DNA from: a virus | Virus record (IMG/VR): IMGVR_UViG_3300031920_000439 | Location: 1-32,228 of that record | Direction: 5' to 3' (one strand) | DNA: 32,228 bases | Part shown: positions 2,497 to 27,071 of the stretch, in pieces | How the letters are laid out: the number at the start of each line of letters is the position of its first letter | Numbering within the stretch: the first letter of the stretch is position 1 | Position numbers and translations under genes: made by a program | The notes under the pieces: generated by a model | Told to the model about the DNA's origin: nothing | Database searches by the model: none | The model's input: the letters and a program-made list of their open reading frames with translations, nothing else

Positions 2497-4504
2497 TTAA
2501 TGGTATTTTTCCATACTCTTTATAACCTCTAGCATTTGTATATCAACCTATATCCCTAAACTGTTTAGCTATTGCATCTTGGACAACAGGTTTTCTAAAT
2601 GAAAGTTCTTCATCTCCAAGTTCTGCCATTCCCATAGCGGCAACAATATCAAAGTCTTTTTTTCGCTCATCAGAATATGTTAACAATTGTTTTATAATTT
2701 CAGGAAAAGCTATTGTATGACAGTAATCTAATATAAAATCATAGATTAATTCTCTATAATGAACAATAACTTTTTCAGGAGTTGGTGTTCCATACATTTT
2801 AGAATTTCCTTTTGCAACATCAGGCATTGTAGCTCTTGGTCTTCTCATCAGTAAATGTAAATATTTTGCATCTCTAAAATATGTTAATATAGCAGTTCTA
2901 GTTGCTTCTAATACTGCTTTACAACCATAGTAAGTTAATAGTTTTGCTGCATTTTCATATGCATCTCTAATATCTCTTGGTCTTTCTTTATATATAGCAA
3001 CATATCCTGGCTCTTGTAATCCAAAAGTTCTCTTTTTTATAACTATACAAAATTCAGATAATTTATCAGAATAAGAAGAATCGTTCTTACCTATATCAAT
3101 GGAGTCAATTCCACCAACATATAAATTTCTATATGAACTTCCATCCTCTGATTTTAATGGGTGTTCTAAGATCTCAATCTTTCCATCGTCCCCTCCTCTT
3201 CATTTTAACTTCCTTGACTGTTCCCCATCTTCAGTTACTCATACTAAATGTCCATTTTTAGGTTTATCTACTGTTTTATATATATGAATAGCAGCATCTT
3301 GTTCTGCTAATTCTTCTCTTGGAAAAATATTATCTCCTTCTCCAATAAGAGCCTCTTCCATAGTATAGCAGAATTCTGCCTTATACATAAGAAGTCCTTT
3401 AGGGTCTGCAGCTTTTGCAATCCTTATTGCATCTTCTTCTGCTTTTCCTTTTATAGGATCTACTCACCCTCTCTTATCTGCCAAATGAAATGTTGTAACA
3501 TAAACAGGAATAAACATAGAACTTAATACAGCTTGTCCATCTACTGTATGTCTATTAACATACGGTAAAATGTTAAAAGTTTCTGGAGTAAAAGCCATAT
3601 TTCTAATACCTTCTATTGCAGGACCTTTATCACCACCAGTTCCTCAACCAATTCTTGTTCCAATCTTATCACCCATTACTTTAACGAGTGCTTCTCCTTG
3701 AATTCATTTTTTCTTAAATATTTTATCAGAACCAGCTTCTTCAAAAAATAGACGCTCTGTTCTATCACCCCTAATTTTCTCAGGCTTATCAGCAACTACT
3801 CCTTCAACTTCAGACATATGACCTGATTCTCTTCCGTTTTTATCACGCATAGATGCTCTTTTAAAGTATCTACTATCGTTTACCATTCGAACTCTTTTAA
3901 AAGCAGTTTCCGTTTCTTCATTTACCCAATCTAATTGAGCTCAAATTTTAGCTAATAAAGGTTTTAAGTGATTATCAGAAAATGCAGAAACCATGACTCT
4001 ATAGTTTGGAGTTGTAATATAAGGTCTTGCACATAAGCAAGCACCTATTTCAGAAAATCCAATACCACGAGATTTTAAAAGTCCTACATCTTTTCCTAAT
4101 ACTTCACAAATTTCTACATAATGAAAATACTCATATTGAAATACTAAAAAGGTTGGAAAATCTACTCCCCTTCCTTGCCCGGCTCTGTTTCCTTTCTTAG
4201 AAGTTTTAAGTCTATAAAAATTTAATCAAAAATAATTATCTCCAGTTACTCTATATCCATTTATTGTATAGCCATTATCACATCGTCTCATTCTTTCTTT
4301 TCAGAAATCTCTTTGTGTTTTAGAACCAACAAGAGCATTACTATAGTTACCTGTACTAGCTTTTGCTAAAGCATCTTGTCTGAATCAATCAGGGTTAAAA
4401 TCTAAACTATCTTTTTCATTTATTGGTTTATACCCAGTAATTTCATAAGATAATCGTGCATCAAATGCTTCTATTTTATCGTCTATTTTAACATCTCATT
4501 CCAT
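2426..4504 (-). CDS. terL: Terminase large subunit, many TGA codons read as Trp
   Basis: This is the packaging motor ATPase and nuclease. The frame from ATG 4504 encodes about 692 residues, but only if TGA is sense. Around twelve in-frame TGA codons occur, the first at codon 3, and all sit where Trp reads naturally (for example MEW, FKKKW, RIGWG, LVWV). A Walker A-like stretch SRGIGFSE lies near residues 145-152 and a Walker B-like RLFFEE near 251-256. The C-terminal half has acidic residues typical of the RNase H-like nuclease (GGIDSIDIGK, then DIVAAMGMAELG). The last TGA (2447-2449) could be the real stop; reading through it adds only WLYKELI before TAA. Start codon and upstream stop are two bases apart. 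Confidence 0.9.
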
Positions 4505-7022: not shown

Positions 7023-7320
7023 GATTCTGATTAATTATATTTTGTTGTTGTGAAATAGAATCTATCTTATAATTAATAGCGTCTTGCCGTTCTGTTAGAA
7101 CTTCATTAATAATATTAATTGAATCTATCTCGGCTTGATAAAGAAAAATTAACTGTTCTTGCTGTCTTTTAAAATTATCAAACTTATTTTTTTCATTATC
7201 TATATAGTCCATATTAAATGTTATTGCAAAATAGCCTAAAACAAGTAACAGAACCATAACTAAAACATGAATTATATTCTTAGAATATAATTTTTTCCCT
7301 ATTTCTTTTAAATTCTTCAT
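6913..7320 (-). CDS. Inner-membrane coiled-coil protein, i-spanin-like
   Basis: A protein of 135 residues with one N-terminal transmembrane helix (about residues 17-35, HVLVMVLLLVLGYFAI) and then a long Gln/Asn/Glu/Ile coiled coil, presumably periplasmic. This is the shape of an inner-membrane spanin, which helps fuse the two membranes at lysis. The 3' part contains the start of the next gene in another frame, and its own start lies inside the end of the exonuclease gene (41-base overlap). Function is inferred from topology and overlap only. Confidence 0.55.
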   Translation of the reverse strand: MKNLKEIGKKLYSKNIIHVLVMVLLLVLGYFAITFNMDYIDNEKNKFDNFKRQQEQLIFLYQAEIDSINIINEVLTERQDAINYKIDSISQQQNIINQNHENEINIIRDATLSEHSQWFSAKIDSIRHNYKPDNK

Positions 7321-9199
7321 TCTCTATTTGTTTTTTATGATATGCTAGCATTCGTTCTACATCTGTCTTTAAATAATCACATTCGTAAGTTGTACATCCG
7401 CCATCATGATCATAATGTATTAGCATTAGTAATTTTATATTAAATTTTGGATCGATCTTTTGAATCATCCACGCGTATGTAGATAGCTGCAGAGTATAAT
7501 GCCAAAAATTAGTATCTTCTATATTATTTAAAGGATACTCCATTGTAGAAGCTCTTCTTTTATTTCTGTCATAAAAACCTTTTTTCTCTATCTTTTTATT
7601 AGTGTTGTGAGTAACTATTAATGATCGCCCTGCTAAAAATGTATGACTTGAACTACTCACTTCAATACATTTAGTAGGTATCATATTTACTTTTACTACA
7701 CTTTTAATGTTCCTAAAAGAGGCTTTATCTGTTTTTGGATATTCTATTCCTCTTTGATTTCTGAGTAAAAATGGATTTTCTTTTGTAGTGAAACATACAT
7801 CCCATCCATCAAAAGTTTTTCCATCACAATATTTTTTTGCAAAAATTATACTTGGTTTTATCCCAAGTGTTGCTAGTAAATCTCTTAAATACTCTGCTTG
7901 ATATTTACGAGTTGTAGCCATTACATATCTTTTTCTTTTTTTATTATAATATCCATCAGCATCCATAAATCCTCTTAATAAATCTAATCTTTGATTATAA
8001 GAAGATACTAAATATTTATCAGGAATATGTTTATTTTCTAATAAATTTAATTTACTAAGTTCTGTCCTCAAACCAAATAAAGTTCTTGTTTGAATATTTG
8101 TTCTACCTGAAATATTTTCTCCTATATCATAACCCCTATTTTCTATCTCTTCCCAAAGTTTAGTATTTTCTCCAGTAGTGATAGAACCTGCTATAGAAGT
8201 TCCATCTCCAAGCCAAGCCCCTAATATATAAGGGTCTATTGGTAAAATCTTTTTAGAAATATTTAAAGGTTTAGGATTCAATATTTTTGGTAAATAATAT
8301 ACATTTTTACAATTATTATATTTATCTACTACCTCAACTAATTCTTCAGTTGTTAATACTACATCTTTAAATTTTCCTTTTCCTCTACTAAAAGATATTA
8401 ACCATCTATGTTCATGATCTGCAATTATGGATTCTCCATTATCAAATATTATTTCATAACATGGATTATAATGTATTTTAGAAATATTTTTTATATTTGT
8501 CTCATTACCATCCTTATCAAATATAATATCATTAGTATTAATACTCTCTAAAAGTTTATATCCTTTTGTGGTCAATATAGGAGTGTCTAATGGCAATCCT
8601 TTATAGTCTAATACATATACATCATATCCATCAACTATAATTAGGTCAGCTTGCCCAGCAAGTCGTAATTTACCATCAGGAGAAATCCTTGATAAAAGTA
8701 ATTCTGGATATACTCCTTTTTTTCCAATCTTTATTCTATTAGAAGTATCTGTTGTAAAAGAGCTTCTATCTAATCCAAGTTCTTTTAATTCTTTTGTTTG
8801 CCCAGATAAATGAGCAAGCTCATGTTCTCTATGAATAGCATTTCCTCTAACACAAGAAACTTCTCTTTTTTCTTCCCACTCTTTTAAAATTGATGTTTTT
8901 GCTGATATAAATTCTTCATCAGAAATACCAAATCGTTCATAGTAGGTATTATTAAATCTTTTTGTGGAAACCAATTCCTTTTTAACTTGTGAGAATTGAT
9001 CTAAATTTACAATACTTTCTAACGCTTTATACGAGGACCAAAATGCCTCATCAAATGTAGTAAACTTGTGAATCAGTGTAGTCACTGAAATACAAGCTTG
9101 TTCTGTATCTTTTATCCAATATTTGTGTAATTCATCATTATACTTTACAGTATCATCTTCCTTGTCAACTACTAGTTGACCATAATTAATTTTTTCCAT
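7280..9199 (-). CDS. PD-(D/E)XK exonuclease (RecB/Cas4-like) with intein
   Basis: A precursor of about 639 residues. The extein halves join to a nuclease of about 307 residues with the RecB-like signature: an early GNAIHREHE helix, a PELLLSR glutamate, GQADLII, the catalytic DYK, and QLSTYAW (the QxxxY motif). It probably acts on DNA ends in recombination or replication. Residues 201-532 are an intein inserted exactly after the catalytic Lys of DYK, so the nuclease is inactive until splicing. ATG 9199 is chosen because it directly follows the stop of the upstream gene (9201-9203); starts at 9214 and 9241 are possible. No in-frame TGA. Confidence 0.85.
   Translation of the reverse strand: MEKINYGQLVVDKEDDTVKYNDELHKYWIKDTEQACISVTTLIHKFTTFDEAFWSSYKALESIVNLDQFSQVKKELVSTKRFNNTYYERFGISDEEFISAKTSILKEWEEKREVSCVRGNAIHREHELAHLSGQTKELKELGLDRSSFTTDTSNRIKIGKKGVYPELLLSRISPDGKLRLAGQADLIIVDGYDVYVLDYKGLPLDTPILTTKGYKLLESINTNDIIFDKDGNETNIKNISKIHYNPCYEIIFDNGESIIADHEHRWLISFSRGKGKFKDVVLTTEELVEVVDKYNNCKNVYYLPKILNPKPLNISKKILPIDPYILGAWLGDGTSIAGSITTGENTKLWEEIENRGYDIGENISGRTNIQTRTLFGLRTELSKLNLLENKHIPDKYLVSSYNQRLDLLRGFMDADGYYNKKRKRYVMATTRKYQAEYLRDLLATLGIKPSIIFAKKYCDGKTFDGWDVCFTTKENPFLLRNQRGIEYPKTDKASFRNIKSVVKVNMIPTKCIEVSSSSHTFLAGRSLIVTHNTNKKIEKKGFYDRNKRRASTMEYPLNNIEDTNFWHYTLQLSTYAWMIQKIDPKFNIKLLMLIHYDHDGGCTTYECDYLKTDVERMLAYHKKQIENEEFKRNREKIIF
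7604..8599 (-). mobile_element. Intein with LAGLIDADG endonuclease, class 3-like
   Basis: This intein of 332 residues begins GLPLDTPILTT and ends IVTHN, followed by Thr as the first C-extein residue. It has two LAGLIDADG motifs (ILGAWLGDG and LLRGFMDADG), so it is a homing endonuclease. The first residue is Gly, not Cys or Ser. It has the Trp of a block-B HRW, a block-F Cys (KCIEV) and the block-G Thr (VTHN), which together match the W-C-T set of class 3 inteins. In that class a block-F Cys starts splicing in place of residue 1. Confidence 0.88.
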
Positions 9200-9200
9200 T

Positions 9201-9890
9201 TTATAATTCTTCATGCATTTTGTTAAAATTAAGATAACCACTTATTAGTTGCGCACTACATGCTATTCTAGGTAAAGCTTTCTCTCTTGTAAAACTATTA
9301 TTACCTACTGTTGTAACAACAACAAAGCCAATTACACTAGGAGTGCTATAGAGTGAATAAAATAGTGCAGAGTTTACATTATTTTGTTTCATTAAACTAT
9401 AGACAAACATTGAGTTATCTTTCATTTCTTTTAAGTTACTTACATAGTAGTAACTTTTATCTTCCAATTGCTCTAAAAATTCAGCTACAATTGATGTATT
9501 TATCTTTTGGTATTGAGAAGAAACCGGACTAGTGCCAGGAGTAACTACTTCACAAGTAGCTGAGACATATAAAAATGGAAGTCCTACTAAATTTGTATTT
9601 CCATTAGAGAATTCAAATACAAGAGCTCTATCTGCACCAACTTCTTCTGCTAATTCTAGTAACTCTTTCCTAATTTTAGGTGTTATATTTTTCCTGTGCA
9701 ATGCTGCTTCTGCATGTATTCTATCTTTATCATGTAGTTTCTGCTCAAGGTAAGTCTTTATTAAAGACGAATAGTTTTTCATTACTAAATATACACCGTA
9801 TATAATTATTACTACGACCATTACAATACCAGCAGCGGTTTGACCATAGTACTCAATGATCTTTTCAAATAATTCAATTAATCAAGTCAT
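9201..9890 (-). CDS. Membrane-anchored GAF-like protein, TGA-recoded start
   Basis: The frame runs 229 residues from ATG 9890 if the TGA at codon 3 is Trp (MTWLIELF). The N-terminus has an amphipathic helix and one transmembrane helix (IVMVVVIIIYGVYLVM), and a charged helix follows. The rest resembles a GAF or similar small-molecule sensor fold (RALVFEFSNG, then FYSLYS, then IGFVVVTTVG). A short membrane N-terminus at the head of a late operon could suggest a holin-linked role, but the large cytoplasmic-type domain argues for a sensor. It is the first gene after the promoter box at 9935-9942. Confidence 0.65.
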
Positions 9891-10064: not shown

Positions 10065-10754
10065 TTATATACTATAGTGTCTTAGTTCTTCTAATATTTT
10101 TGGAATGATAGGGTTTCTAACACAGTCCTCATCTGCAAATTCAATTGTACCAACATAATCCACATCTCTAAAAATATCTACTACATTTGCTAAACAGGAT
10201 TCTTCCTTATGTTTACGATCAACTTGTTCTATATCACCTAAAAATATATATTTAGAGTTATGTCCGATTCTAGTTATGATTGTTTTAAAAGTATGCCTAT
10301 CAATATTTTGAGCTTCATCTACTATAACAATTGAATTATCAATAGATAGCCCTCTAATATATGCAAGAGGCATTATTTCTAATAACCCTGTATGAAGAAG
10401 CTCTTTGGAAGCTGCTTTTCCACATAACTTATCTATATTTCAAGTATAAGACATTAAGAAAGGTTCCATTTTATCTTCATAAGTTCCAGGTGTAAATCCG
10501 ATTTGTTCCCCAGGGATAGTAGTTACTGACTTAATTAGTATGATTTTTTTAAAACCTCTATCTAATAAAGATAATGATGTAGCAAGAGTTACATATGTTT
10601 TGCCAACTCCAGAAGATCCTGTTGCCAGAGTTACTTCCTTGGTAAGTATTGCATCAATCAACTCTCTTTGCTTATTAGTTTTAGGTCTAAATCCTTCTAG
10701 TATATTAAACTGTTTTTCAGGCAATTTATTTTTATGTTTATTATTTTTTCCCAT
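10065..10754 (-). CDS. phoH: PhoH-like ATPase, one TGA read as Trp
   Basis: A PhoH-family P-loop ATPase of 229 residues, common in phages and thought to act on RNA or nucleotides. Walker A is GSSGVGKT (near residues 46-53) and Walker B is IVIVDEAQN, with the family FLGDIEQVD motif after it. The frame is interrupted at TGA 10440-10442, which must be Trp (SYTWNIDK). Read with the standard code, the two halves would each carry one Walker motif, so neither would be a working ATPase. It is the last gene before the terminator. Confidence 0.88.
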
Positions 10755-14398: not shown

Positions 14399-14470
14399 AA
14401 TATTTTAATTTAACTTCTATTTATCTATTTGCAGGCTCGACAAGAGTTGAACTCGCATCGTGCGGTTTTG

Positions 14471-15075
14471 CTTACCACTACAGTTTTCACTGCCATAAAA
14501 TGTTTGTGGTCTGGACTATATCTTCACCTTATACTAAACTTAGGTGGAGGATCATCTAGTCTCTACGGGCTGAATTACTTCATTCCCTCGGTATTGCCAT
14601 CAACATTATTTGTTAAGGTTTCACCGATATTATCCTCTCCATCCATAATGTTTCCACTATGAAGCTCCATTAGATTAAAATTATTTTTATATTCTTTCAA
14701 TTTATTTATTGAGATAGAAGAAGTATAATTTTGACTAAAAGATATTGGAATCATATATACATCTTCAGTTTCTAAATCTACTCCTACAAAGTAATCTATC
14801 TCTTCAGCTGTATATAAATGCGTTTTATGTTCAGTTTTATTATGAGTCATTTTTCTCATTGGAACACTTTTATACCCATTTCTCTTTTCTACTGTTACTG
14901 TTTTTATTTGAATACGTAAATATTTATTATCTTTTTCTATAATCATATCTACTTTACCATTTTCAATAACTGGCTTAAATACATTAAGCCCATTTCTAAT
15001 CAATTTTTGTTCTACTATTAAAGAGCCTAAATAACCCTTCTCAATTTTTCCTATTTCCATAATTTTAATCTGCTA
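14471..15075 (-). mobile_element. Group I intron inside the tRNA anticodon
   Basis: An insertion of 605 nt that ends in G and follows a T of the 5' exon, as group I introns do. The 5' splice site is ambiguous by one or two bases in the T run 15075-15077. Core elements on the minus strand are an R-like segment ending CCGTAGAGACTA (14557-14574) and the S-like AAGATATAGTC (14514-14524). Their GACTA/TAGTC parts form P7. CACCT/AGGTG forms P8 (14525-14529 with 14542-14546), and CAGT-GAAA-ACTG (14481-14492) is a P9-type hairpin with a GNRA loop. P3 can form from GAGGAT inside the end of the ORF. I could not locate P1. Confidence 0.9.
14575..15060 (-). CDS. PD-(D/E)XK homing endonuclease encoded in the intron
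   Basis: A protein of 161 residues. The core is GYLGSLIVEQKL, then KVDMIIEKDNKYLRIQIKTV, that is a Glu-containing first helix, an Asp, and QxK: the PD-(D/E)XK arrangement. The cyanobacterial tRNA-intron endonuclease I-Ssp6803I is the known example of such an enzyme in a tRNA group I intron, and the layout here is the same kind. The ATG lies 15 bases into the intron and the 3' end overlaps the catalytic core. It presumably cuts intron-less copies of the suppressor tRNA gene to spread the intron. No TGA codon is used, so it does not depend on the tRNA it interrupts. Confidence 0.82.
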   Translation of the reverse strand: MEIGKIEKGYLGSLIVEQKLIRNGLNVFKPVIENGKVDMIIEKDNKYLRIQIKTVTVEKRNGYKSVPMRKMTHNKTEHKTHLYTAEEIDYFVGVDLETEDVYMIPISFSQNYTSSISINKLKEYKNNFNLMELHSGNIMDGEDNIGETLTNNVDGNTEGMK

Positions 15076-15117
15076 AAGACCGCTGTGTTACCATTACACC
15101 ACGAGCCTATTTTTTAA

Positions 15118-22684: not shown

Positions 22685-22691
22685 AATTCTT

Positions 22692-22725
22692 GAACAGCAC
22701 ACTTTGTGTGTTGTTCAATTTTTTT
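22692..22725 (+). terminator. Rho-independent terminator of the 169-aa gene
   Basis: GAACA-G-CACAC and GTGTG-T-TGTTC pair across a TTT loop, then AA and seven T. It starts seven bases after the stop codon. Its strength and G/C content match the foreign look of the gene it ends. Confidence 0.88.
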
Positions 22726-22973: not shown

Positions 22974-23420
22974 CTTAGGTTATTTTAACAGAAAGACTGG
23001 AAGTTATTGAGTAATGTATATTACATTACAGTGAAGAAGGATAATAACTTAGGGAGATAACTTTCAATCGAAGAAAGTAAGCTAACAATTCGCAATAATT
23101 TTTATCCAAGTTATGAAAGATTGTTAGTTTATGATGAGATTAAGAGAGAATTTATTATATTCAAACATATATGTTATTAAAATTGAGTTCGTTTGCTTAA
23201 TTAATTCAAATTTGTAATTTATTTTTTGAAAATGTATGACAGTGATGATGCGCGTGTATCAATCACTGTCACATTCTCAAATTTTCAAGCATTTCAAACA
23301 TTTTATTTTATTTCAATAAAATTCCCTATATGCTAATTTATAGAATTTAACTCATTTTATAAATTATCATTTAACAAGTATTTTAATTCAAAATTAAATA
23401 TTATTTAAACTCAAATCATT
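22974..23420 (+). other. Non-coding leader region with hairpins
   Basis: 447 bases without a gene. It contains AAGTTATTGA at 23001-23010, the same string as in the repeated hairpins further right, directly followed by a perfect palindromic hairpin (GTAATGTA/TACATTAC, 23011-23029). A second stem pairs TGACAGTGAT (23237-23246) with ATCACTGTCA (23262-23271) around a G/C-containing loop. The last 80 bases are the AT-rich leader of the next gene. Confidence 0.5.
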
Positions 23421-24051: not shown

Positions 24052-24228
24052 ATGTATATTTCAAAATTAAATATCTTTTTAGATAATGACATTAAAACTG
24101 AAAAAGAATTACATACATTTAAGTATTATTTTGTTATGGGTATTAGAACAGAGGAATTTGCTGCTAATAGTGCTATGGCAAGTAGTTGTAGAAAATGTAT
24201 AAATAATTTTAAAAAATTATTGAGCTGA
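24052..24228 (+). CDS. Hypothetical small protein, 58 aa
   Basis: ATG 24052, seven bases after the previous stop, reads MYISKLNIFLDNDIKTEKEL. It ends at TGA 24226-24228; if that TGA were Trp, only WQ would be added before TAA. It contains a CRKC motif near the end. Function unknown. Confidence 0.5.
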   Translation: MYISKLNIFLDNDIKTEKELHTFKYYFVMGIRTEEFAANSAMASSCRKCINNFKKLLS

Positions 24229-24620
24229 CAGTAATATTTAATCGCAATTAAGTCGCTGTCCGAAACAAATGTACTGTTAAAGTACAAGCATTTGTTTCTT
24301 ATTTTAATTAATTAATTAGTCTTCATTATAATCATTAGAGACAAACAACTTAGAGGATTGATTCTCAAATATCATGTATAATTAAATTATAAACACCTTT
24401 GTCCGAGGTACTATTAGCTTACCCATTGGGAAGACGTTAAGTGGACAAACTAATACCTGCATGTATTAAAACTGCAATTATGTCGTCCAATTGACAATAT
24501 AATTGGATATCCGCTTTAATACCTCTAGTTATAGCTTACGGATATAAAACATGAGGAATAACCAAGTGCTAATGCTTAAATGAACTTTATTTGTTTGGCT
24601 TGGTTATAAAATATATTTCG

Positions 24621-24688
24621 TAAAGGAGAGTTCTATTTCCTTTATTATCCGTCGAGGGGAAGTTATTGAACTTCCCCTTCTTGGATAA
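24621..24688 (+). repeat. Paired-hairpin element, copy 1
   Basis: Hairpin 1 pairs TAAAGGA with TCCTTTA (24621-24644). The outer stem TTATCC (24645-24650) pairs with GGATAA (24683-24688) and encloses the perfect 9-bp hairpin GGGGAAGTT/AACTTCCCC (24656-24677) containing the AGTTATTGA signature. Confidence 0.65.
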
Positions 24689-24698
24689 ACAATACTCT

Positions 24699-24769
24699 TG
24701 AGGACGTTCTGGTCCTCATTTGTAATCGGTGTTTCAATGTGAGGAAGCTATTGAGTCTCCTCTTTTTAC
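24699..24769 (+). repeat. Paired-hairpin element, copy 2
   Basis: Hairpin 1 pairs TGAGGAC with GTCCTCA (24699-24718). A short outer stem GTAA/TTAC (24722 and 24766) encloses an inner stem GAGGA/TCCTC (24741-24762) whose loop holds AGCTATTGAGT. It ends 18 bases before the ATG of the small membrane protein. Confidence 0.6.
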
Positions 24770-24786
24770 TAACTTAAATCAAATTT

Positions 24787-24966
24787 ATGCATCTATTTAT
24801 TTCTATTGCATTAGCAATTCATTTTACTAATTTAATAGCATTTATGTTATTAAGTAATGGATTAAGGAAAATAAACAAAGAAAGATGGTTCACATGGACT
24901 ATGCTTTTAGGATTAACAAGTATATTACTTATAACAGTTATACTTGGTTTAAATCCTGTTACATAA
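24787..24966 (+). CDS. Small membrane protein, 59 aa
   Basis: ATG 24787 reads MHLFISIALAIHFTNLIAFM, then a basic loop (NGLRKINKERW), then a second hydrophobic segment (TMLLGLTSILLITVILGL). It is a two-helix membrane hairpin with TGG Trp codons, ending TAA. Two-helix hairpins of this size occur in holins and in early host-takeover proteins; nothing here decides between them. It sits between two copies of the paired-hairpin element. Confidence 0.6.
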   Translation: MHLFISIALAIHFTNLIAFMLLSNGLRKINKERWFTWTMLLGLTSILLITVILGLNPVT

Positions 24967-24973
24967 AATACTT

Positions 24974-25048
24974 TGAAGAACACTCAAGTTCTTCATATGT
25001 GTATTTGGGGAAACTAGGAGGAGTTATTGAGCTCCTCCTTTCACACAT
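24974..25048 (+). repeat. Paired-hairpin element, copy 3
   Basis: Hairpin 1 pairs TGAAGAAC with GTTCTTCA (24974-24995). The outer stem ATGTGT/ACACAT (24997-25002 and 25043-25048) encloses the perfect 8-bp inner hairpin AGGAGGAG/CTCCTCCT (25016-25039) with loop TTATTGAG. It lies 99 bases before the next gene. Confidence 0.65.
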
Positions 25049-25147
25049 CAAGATATACTAATATTTCATAACTATTAGTGTATTTTAAGTTTTTAATAAA
25101 AAACAATTTAATAGTTACTTTTTAAATTCAAATTAAATTCAAATCAA

Positions 25148-25381
25148 ATGGTAATTAACAATGATGGTAAATTAGCTTCAACAGCTGAACAAATTTCTGG
25201 AGAATTAGAAAAAATGATTCTTGAAAAATATACAACAGAGCAATTACGTGTTGCTTATGTGAATTCTTTAAATAGTCCTGTAACTTATGTTGATCATAAA
25301 CTTTGGATTGCTTTTAAATTTGAAGATGGTTCAACATTAGCTTTTTCATTAACAGGAAATGACCAAGAAAAAGAAATATAG
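25148..25381 (+). CDS. Hypothetical protein, 77 aa
   Basis: A small acidic protein of 77 residues (MVINNDGKLASTAEQISGEL), with a helix followed by a beta hairpin (HKLWIAFKFEDGSTLAF). Not recognised. It ends with TAG one base before the next ATG, so the two are probably one unit. Confidence 0.55.
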   Translation: MVINNDGKLASTAEQISGELEKMILEKYTTEQLRVAYVNSLNSPVTYVDHKLWIAFKFEDGSTLAFSLTGNDQEKEI

Positions 25382-25382
25382 T

Positions 25383-25736
25383 ATGGTAAAGGTGTTTGGT
25401 TTACCACACCTTCATGAAAATACTGCAATTAAATTTAATTCAACTGGTTTATCATTATCAGTTGGATTAAATGTTGAAGCTCCTATTGCATTTGTTCTTA
25501 CTTATAATAATTTTGATGGTATGGTATTTAAAGGTAAGTATATGCAACTCTATAAATTAGCTATTAATATTCCTGCTCAATATATTAGTAATGCAACTAT
25601 TATTAATGAACAAGCTCGTTTATTAGCAATGGTACAAGCCGATATTGCAATAGCTAAAATTGGTACATATTCTTTTGTACCTTTAATTAAAAATGTACCT
25701 ACATTTCTTAGTAATCAAGAAATAAATAAACAATGA
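25383..25736 (+). CDS. Hypothetical protein, 117 aa
   Basis: ATG 25383 (MVKVFGLPHLHENTAIKF) is chosen because it directly follows the previous stop; an ATG at 25359 lies inside that gene. Beta-rich, about 117 residues, ending at TGA 25734-25736. Reading that TGA as Trp would extend it 35 residues to TAA 25838, but the extension contains a C(UUCG)G-capped stem and looks more like RNA structure. Function unknown. Confidence 0.55.
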   Translation: MVKVFGLPHLHENTAIKFNSTGLSLSVGLNVEAPIAFVLTYNNFDGMVFKGKYMQLYKLAINIPAQYISNATIINEQARLLAMVQADIAIAKIGTYSFVPLIKNVPTFLSNQEINKQ

Positions 25737-25977
25737 TATGATTTGAGTTCCAAAGCCTCTTCGGAGGTGGCGGATACTTATAACAATGCTTTTTCATCAT
25801 TTTTAATAAATGATAATGCTTTTAAATTATTCTACTAATATAGGGTTTAAAAGCTAAAAAACAAATAACATCCCAAGTTATTGAGGGCAGCAAGTTTCTT
25901 TTTATCGAATTGATTGATAGTTCGCGAATATGAAAAGTTTTAGCTGTAAAATACATTAATCATTAAAATTTAAAATT
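25737..25977 (+). promoter_or_regulatory. Structured leader with paired-hairpin element, copy 4
   Basis: CCTC-TTCG-GAGG forms a short stem with a UUCG tetraloop near 25755. Further on, AGCTAAAA (25852-25859) pairs perfectly with TTTTAGCT (25938-25945). It encloses CCC-AAGTTATTGA-GGG (25872-25887), the signature string of the repeated element. It precedes the 282-residue gene by 32 bases. Confidence 0.55.
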
Positions 25978-26826
25978 ATGACAAATGAAATTAAATTAAG
26001 TAAATATCTTAAGGCAATTAAGACTTTACTACAGTTACAAAACAAAGAAACACGTTTAATTGATGTAACTATGAGTCAATTTGTAAAGACACATAAGTTA
26101 TCTCCAAGTTTTTTTACAGCATTAGGGAGAAAAGATATTATTCATATTAAAAAAGGTGCTTATAATAAGCGTTATTTTTATGCTAAAATGTATCCAAATC
26201 AAATTGATCCAAAACATGCAAAAGATGTAATTGAAATTTGTAATAAAATTTCAGCATCTTATACAAAAAAACCAAAAATTATTGATAATTCTGTTATTGC
26301 TAAATTAGCAAAATTTAACAAATTTGTTAATAACAATAAACTGGAAAGTACTAGAGTTAAAATATATCGGAATAAAAATAATCATTCAGATACATTTGAT
26401 TCTATTGATGAAGCAATCAAACGCAATTTATTTCTTGGAGATTATGAAACTCATTATATGATTGATTCTCCAAAAGAAAGAGCAATTAAAATGATTAGTT
26501 TGAATTCAACTGTTACTGCTAATACTATTAAAGTATTACAAGATGCTTTAGTGAGTGTTAAACGTATTAGTAAAGTTACTCCAAAACATGGTGTAGTGAT
26601 TACAAATGGTCGAAAGAAACGTGTTGTAAATCCAGGTAAAAAAGAATTTCAAGCTGAGTTAAATCGATTGTATCAAAGAATTCTTGCAGCTAAAGGAAAT
26701 AATTTAAAATCAGCTCAATTGAGATTAGAACGTGTTCAATATTATATTGATAATAAAAAAGTACCATCTCGTACTTTTGGTGATTTTCAATTATATAATG
26801 ATACTATTACAAATATATCTGTATAA
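25978..26826 (+). CDS. Unrecognised basic protein, 282 aa
   Basis: A Lys-rich protein of 282 residues. The N-terminal 80 residues look like a helical DNA-binding or adaptor domain (SQFVKTHKLSPSFFTALGRKDIIH reads like a helix-turn-helix). A middle region has IDEAIKRN, and a Lys/Arg-rich C-terminal third has a long helix (ELNRLYQRILAAKGNNLKSA). It could bind nucleic acid, perhaps as an early host-interacting protein. The reading frame is clean with no TGA. Confidence 0.55.
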   Translation: MTNEIKLSKYLKAIKTLLQLQNKETRLIDVTMSQFVKTHKLSPSFFTALGRKDIIHIKKGAYNKRYFYAKMYPNQIDPKHAKDVIEICNKISASYTKKPKIIDNSVIAKLAKFNKFVNNNKLESTRVKIYRNKNNHSDTFDSIDEAIKRNLFLGDYETHYMIDSPKERAIKMISLNSTVTANTIKVLQDALVSVKRISKVTPKHGVVITNGRKKRVVNPGKKEFQAELNRLYQRILAAKGNNLKSAQLRLERVQYYIDNKKVPSRTFGDFQLYNDTITNISV

Positions 26827-27071
26827 TAATAATTCTTATATTGCTTATTGCATTATAAGTAGGTAGTGACTGACACTAATGGTTAATGTTGTTAATTGAT
26901 TGCCTTAGTTAACAACAGCTCCTCATATTTGTATGGGGAGCTTTCATTGAAATTTGTGGAGAGGAAAAATATTTTAAACTAAGTTTAGTAAAACATTCAC
27001 ATCATCTGGTCCAAACTAATGGAGAAAGAATGAAAGAGGTGCGATGCCTTAAATTACTTAATATTAATATT
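26827..27071 (+). other. Intergenic region with hairpins
   Basis: It contains GTTGTTAA/TTAACAAC (perfect 8 bp, near 26887-26915) and AGCTCC/GGGAGCT (near 26916-26943), then TTTCATTGA, a weak relative of the ATTGA loop signature. Spurious ATGs occur from 27030. No gene is supported before 27072. Confidence 0.45.

Follow-up and report, generated by a model that had tools for sequence, protein, structure and literature searches.

Hairpin signals in the early leaders of phages are a known kind of control element. Lambda nut boxB is a short hairpin with a fixed loop, found in early leaders and bound by an RNA-binding protein, and the RNase III sites of T7 early RNA are intercistronic hairpins with an internal loop; the hairpin promoter of the N4 virion RNA polymerase has a stem of 5-7 bp and a loop of 3 nt, and HK022 put RNA targets the elongation complex via the beta' zinc-binding domain. 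The HK022 putL and putR RNAs, located in early-region leaders, are each about 70 nt long and form two adjacent stem-loops (PMC9378689). The translational operator of gene 43 in T4 and RB69 is a conserved-loop hairpin upstream of the start codon, at a distance of about 40 nt for T4 (PMC3014915), and Theta (HDV-like) ribozymes are small structured RNAs of recoded phages (PMC10879173). The viral sequence analyzed here contains a three-copy element that is real and most probably an RNA control signal of an ordinary kind.

The window, meaning the whole stretch analyzed (32,228 nt), is a 32-kb IMG/VR fragment whose left two thirds carry genes mainly on the minus strand, including portal, packaging, PhoH, ribonucleotide reductase, homing endonucleases and an intein-bearing gene. 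Plus-strand genes start at 22.2 kb and are mostly small and family-less, the run ending with TerD-like genes at 28-32 kb. A search of a phage collection for a close relative of the window found none. The string AGYTATTGA occurs 10 times in the window where 1.47 are expected (a count reached in 0 of 100 shuffles), five times in plus-strand intergenic gaps and five times in minus-strand genes. For the plus-strand intergenic sequence (1.6 kb) the expectation is 0.024 copies per shuffle set, and among words with at least three G/C the best shuffled word count there was 4, seen once in 500. A coding reading of the string as S-Y-W, with TGA as Trp, was discarded since the frames differ and a shared ORF is absent; ORFs with a start codon do not span the three copies in a common frame, and leader peptides initiating at UUG turned out to be unrelated to one another.

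Pairing around the string was counted in a fixed register, ten pairs flanking the AUUG tetraloop, with the three copies aligned without gaps. At least 8 of 10 pairs are reached at 1.2% of window positions (both strands) and at 1.6% of intergenic plus-strand positions, the mode being 4. An in-register tip hairpin underlies three of the five intergenic strings, all on the plus strand, at 24661 (copy 1), 24746 (copy 2) and 25022 (copy 3). A sequence-only reading of the window had counted at least four copies, of which these three stand; its remaining copy, at 25852-25945, comes down to the string AGTTATTGA (25876-25884, plus strand) on a weak hairpin of three pairs (CCC/GGG) in a different register, with 4 of 10 pairs and a fold that does not beat its shuffles (z-score -0.8). 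The bare string it had assigned to the element at 23001-23010 is AGTTATTGA once more (23002-23010, plus strand), with 5 of 10 pairs and no in-register tip hairpin. Because pairing at these two sites is only at background, they are not the same element as copies 1 to 3; the five minus-strand coding strings show 4-5 of 10 pairs, the background value.

Copy 1 consists of a first hairpin of 10 bp with the 6-nt loop GUUCUA (24620-24645) and a second hairpin (24646-24687) with an outer stem of 6 bp, an inner stem of 11 bp and the tip AGUUAUUGA, all 10 pairs being present in register. The first hairpin of copy 2 has 7 bp and the 6-nt loop GUUCUG (24699-24718), and its second, set off by a longer gap than in copies 1 and 3, carries the tip AGCUAUUGA on 8 of 10 pairs and is followed by a U-rich tail (24741-24762). 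Copy 3 has a first hairpin of 8 bp with the 6-nt loop ACUCAA (24974-24995) and a second (24997-25048) with a 6-bp outer stem, an inner stem at 25016-25039, the tip AGUUAUUGA and 10 of 10 pairs. All of these were obtained by folding the plus strand, and the first hairpins of copies 2 and 3 also appear as terminator-like in the terminator listing. The shared architecture that had been proposed thus holds in all three copies for the first hairpin, and for the outer stem in copies 1 and 3, that of copy 2 being not clear. Fold z-scores against shuffles are -6.1, -3.1 and -4.3 for copies 1, 2 and 3. Pair counts of 10, 8 and 9 on the minus strand are nearly equal to the 10, 8 and 10 on the plus strand, so that the choice of the plus strand comes mainly from gene direction.

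Of the ten pairs, four differ in both partners between copies, against 1.6 in shuffled sequence (a value matched in 14 of 500 shuffles), and registers slid along the alignment give 0-2 such pairs. Invariant columns make up 8 of 9 in the tip, against 9 of 64 outside the 31-column core. The claim that the stems differ while compensating changes keep them paired is therefore borne out at four pairs, on an alignment of three paralogues from one contig, and the double changes may instead mean three independent stems bearing one tip. Selection acting on a plus-strand RNA hairpin with a fixed tip is the best reading of the three copies.

Copies 1 and 2 follow each other in tandem at a spacing of 85 nt and close an untranslated stretch of about 550-563 nt (fold z -4.8); a fold landscape was computed over the 20-31 kb part of the window. 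Placement in gaps before small genes, as the sequence-only reading had it, was confirmed. Copy 2 ends 24 nt upstream of the ATG that opens a hydrophobic ORF of 59 aa (24787-24966, plus strand) in which a convincing Pfam family is absent; copy 3 starts 8 nt past the TAA stop of that ORF, and the next gene, 100 nt downstream, encodes 77 aa and has no family (25148-25381, plus strand). The copies, their structure, the constraint on the tip and their position are direct observations. Elsewhere in the region, two neighboring hairpins without the AGYUAUUGA tip open the long untranslated stretch (24228-24298, plus strand), and a stable adjacent hairpin pair, again without that tip, lies at 26888-26942 (plus strand; 126-nt fold z -4.7), 3' of the gene for a 282-aa protein (25978-26826). 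A scan for a Bacteroidetes-type promoter directly 5' of each copy was unspecific, with 66 window sites scoring equal or better, and a tRNA-like reading of the stems at 24.4-24.6 kb was dropped after tRNA searches gave zero tRNAs at default and well over a hundred meaningless matches at relaxed settings.

Searches with the portal and packaging proteins yielded about 85 relatives of up to 213 kb, the nearest matching the packaging protein at about 70-74% amino-acid identity and none being close in the early region. The sequence-only reading had looked to a covariance-model search of relatives for further copies, and such a search, together with one by string plus stem, found no further copy of the tip hairpin in 73 relatives or in G007, G009 and MT835470, an outcome that by that reading's own terms counts against the element without being decisive. 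Model matches above background in relatives fall in coding sequence (G013, G034) or at ordinary terminators (G015, G028, G032, G035). The early side is partly recognizable, through a replication-protein homolog or neighboring genes, in at least six relatives (G010, G011, G012, G013, G023, G025), and in G010 the syntenic place, the gap after the homolog of a 65-aa gene, does not have the tip hairpin. The absence from relatives is informative, not final, because the contigs searched are mostly fragments and the nearest is only about that close in the packaging protein. The neighboring proteins, used as bait for relatives with an early region, brought up nothing close. The covariance-model families of Rfam gave no match, the best E value in the region being 0.018, at the 22690 terminator. 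A pattern scan of viral contigs returned nine chance matches, mostly coding sequence or terminators, and repeated hairpin loops in relatives proved to be coding coincidences.

Set beside the described systems, the element resembles HK022 put, as an RNA of about 70 nt with two adjacent stem-loops (copies 1 and 3, and copy 2 in part) that recurs in similar copies within one phage (two in HK022), in early-region leaders. However, a put-like repeat pair located in HK022 by self-comparison, the putative put sites, has no sequence in common with it by eye and no match to the model of copies 1 to 3, whose one weak match in HK022 is outside that pair. With the gene 43 operator it shares a conserved-loop hairpin upstream of a start codon, only copy 2 being near an ATG; that operator is a single autoregulatory site at a known gene, with the loop UAAC, where the bound autoregulatory protein occludes the ribosome site, whereas here there are three copies, at genes without assigned function. 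None of the pentaloop, boxA partner and N protein that go with boxB was identified at the three copies. Theta ribozymes have an HDV-like self-cleaving fold and adjoin tRNAs, whereas the Rfam searches gave no HDV-type family match.

Our tentative first choice is that copies 1 to 3 are a cis-acting plus-strand recognition hairpin in the leader and intercistronic RNA of small genes, serving put/nut-like antitermination or attenuation of elongation. The copies would be paralogous versions of a single cis-acting RNA element, about 65-75 nt long and laid out as a 5' hairpin with a 6-nt loop and then a hairpin whose stem is conserved in pairing only and whose tip is fixed as AG-Y-U[AUUG]A. We infer that it is made within the plus-strand transcript, occupying the untranslated leader and the gaps between the genes of the small-gene run, and is read in trans. 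Recognition by a protein or RNA polymerase is suggested because the tip is fixed on a variable stem; the reader would be a putative phage or host protein, or RNA polymerase itself. The effect would be control of transcription elongation, with put/nut-like antitermination or leader attenuation as the specific guess, because copies 1 and 2 stand in tandem in a long leader, the U-rich tail of copy 2 lies 24 nt before the ATG, and two of the first hairpins are terminator-like. Against this choice stand the absence of copies from the relatives searched and from the syntenic place in G010, the restriction to three copies of one contig, the weak strand preference and the failure of the promoter scan to single out any site. 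With the two-stem anatomy resembling HK022 put added to these points, we would rank control of elongation first, RNA processing second and plain termination third.

A processing or stability signal, with the hairpins between genes serving as cleavage sites of an RNase III-type enzyme or shielding mRNA ends as between T7 early genes, is unlikely, even though the intergenic position directly past stop codons (copy 3) agrees with it, as do the lower stem, internal loop and upper stem of about 10 bp in copies 1 and 3 and the unrelated stable hairpins in the other gaps noted above. Copy 2 is without the lower stem, and for bacterial RNase III a fixed 9-nt tip, absent from the T7 sites, is not a requirement. 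It is quite unlikely that these are intrinsic terminators sharing a loop by chance. A terminator requires no fixed loop, and the TATTGA loop occurs in 0 of 118 unique terminators from the window and the relatives fetched, by which a clade-wide terminator-loop preference was also rejected; the eight bases after the second hairpins hold 4, 6 and 2 U, against 7 at the clear terminator at 22690-22718. Such a reading would account for the UUUUU after copy 2, the terminator-like first hairpins and the intergenic terminators among the model matches in relatives, but by the test of a GC-rich hairpin plus U tract only the second hairpin of copy 2 comes close, and the six terminator-like sites listed include none of the second hairpins.

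A neutral relic of local duplication, or a functionless insertion-type (REP/MITE-like) repeat, would fit the tandem arrangement of copies 1 and 2 and the relatives without copies; it is nevertheless very doubtful, since copies of a mobile repeat or of a recent duplication have their stem sequence in common, and here the stems differ while pairing and tip are kept. The least probable of these explanations places the element at the level of DNA, as a protein-binding site or as a hairpin promoter extruded from single-stranded DNA in the manner of the N4 virion RNA polymerase. It draws on the repetition of a site near gene starts, the nearly equal pairing of the two strands and the very large proteins (2,900-3,300 aa) of some relatives. 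A double-stranded site would need no pairing stems, however, the loop of 4 nt on a stem of about 10 bp departs from the dimensions of the N4 promoter, and Pfam and PHROGs found no RNA polymerase family in the four giant proteins scanned, all of one relative.

The window also bears on the genetic code of its lineage. To judge by the alignments, TGA is Trp in the late genes, because in-frame TGA there most often stands opposite TGA or Trp in relatives (130 Trp, 2 Gly, with antisense frames counted too). Examples are at 984-986 and 10440-10442 in minus-strand late genes and at 25734-25736 on the plus strand; the portal, PhoH and packaging genes appear broken under the standard code only, and the ORF at 25359 (plus strand) probably extends through TGA to 25838. 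In a comparison with relatives G006, G009 and MT835470 the clade seems split in code: TGA as Trp fits the window and its near relatives, and the more distant G006 translates cleanly with TAG as Gln and shows stops under TGA as Trp. A tRNA with a UCA anticodon, a UGA suppressor (14431-15108, minus strand), has its anticodon loop broken between positions 33 and 34 by 605 nt encoding a 161-aa PD-(D/E)XK endonuclease ORF, and a Rfam Group I intron match lies within the insert (14493-14687, 47.8 bits with gathering at 50, E 5e-11). Since a group I intron splits this tRNA, intact in relatives G010 and G011, the code switch of the phage may depend on self-splicing. The exonuclease-like gene at 7280-9241 (minus strand) has an inserted intein with a LAGLIDADG domain, and in relatives it aligns as two adjoining matching blocks without the insert; relative G010 also has a tmRNA gene called by ARAGORN (3292-3659), adjoining a tRNA array. 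Large genomes, recoding, introns and inteins have been described for some crAss-like groups (PMC7886860), and these traits of the window's lineage appear to match them.

Because hairpin signals in phage early leaders are already known, copies 1 to 3 would be at most a variant of such signals, and their present standing is that of a local three-copy element of narrow distribution. It is very unlikely that the AGYUAUUGA hairpin is the operator of a putative new RNA-binding regulator over several small early genes, which would make a phage RNA regulon built on a new pairing of hairpin and protein. If true, this would provide a short, well-defined RNA target with which to fish for the regulator in a phage lineage that is uncultured and recodes stop codons, and would show how the small early genes of that lineage come under joint control.
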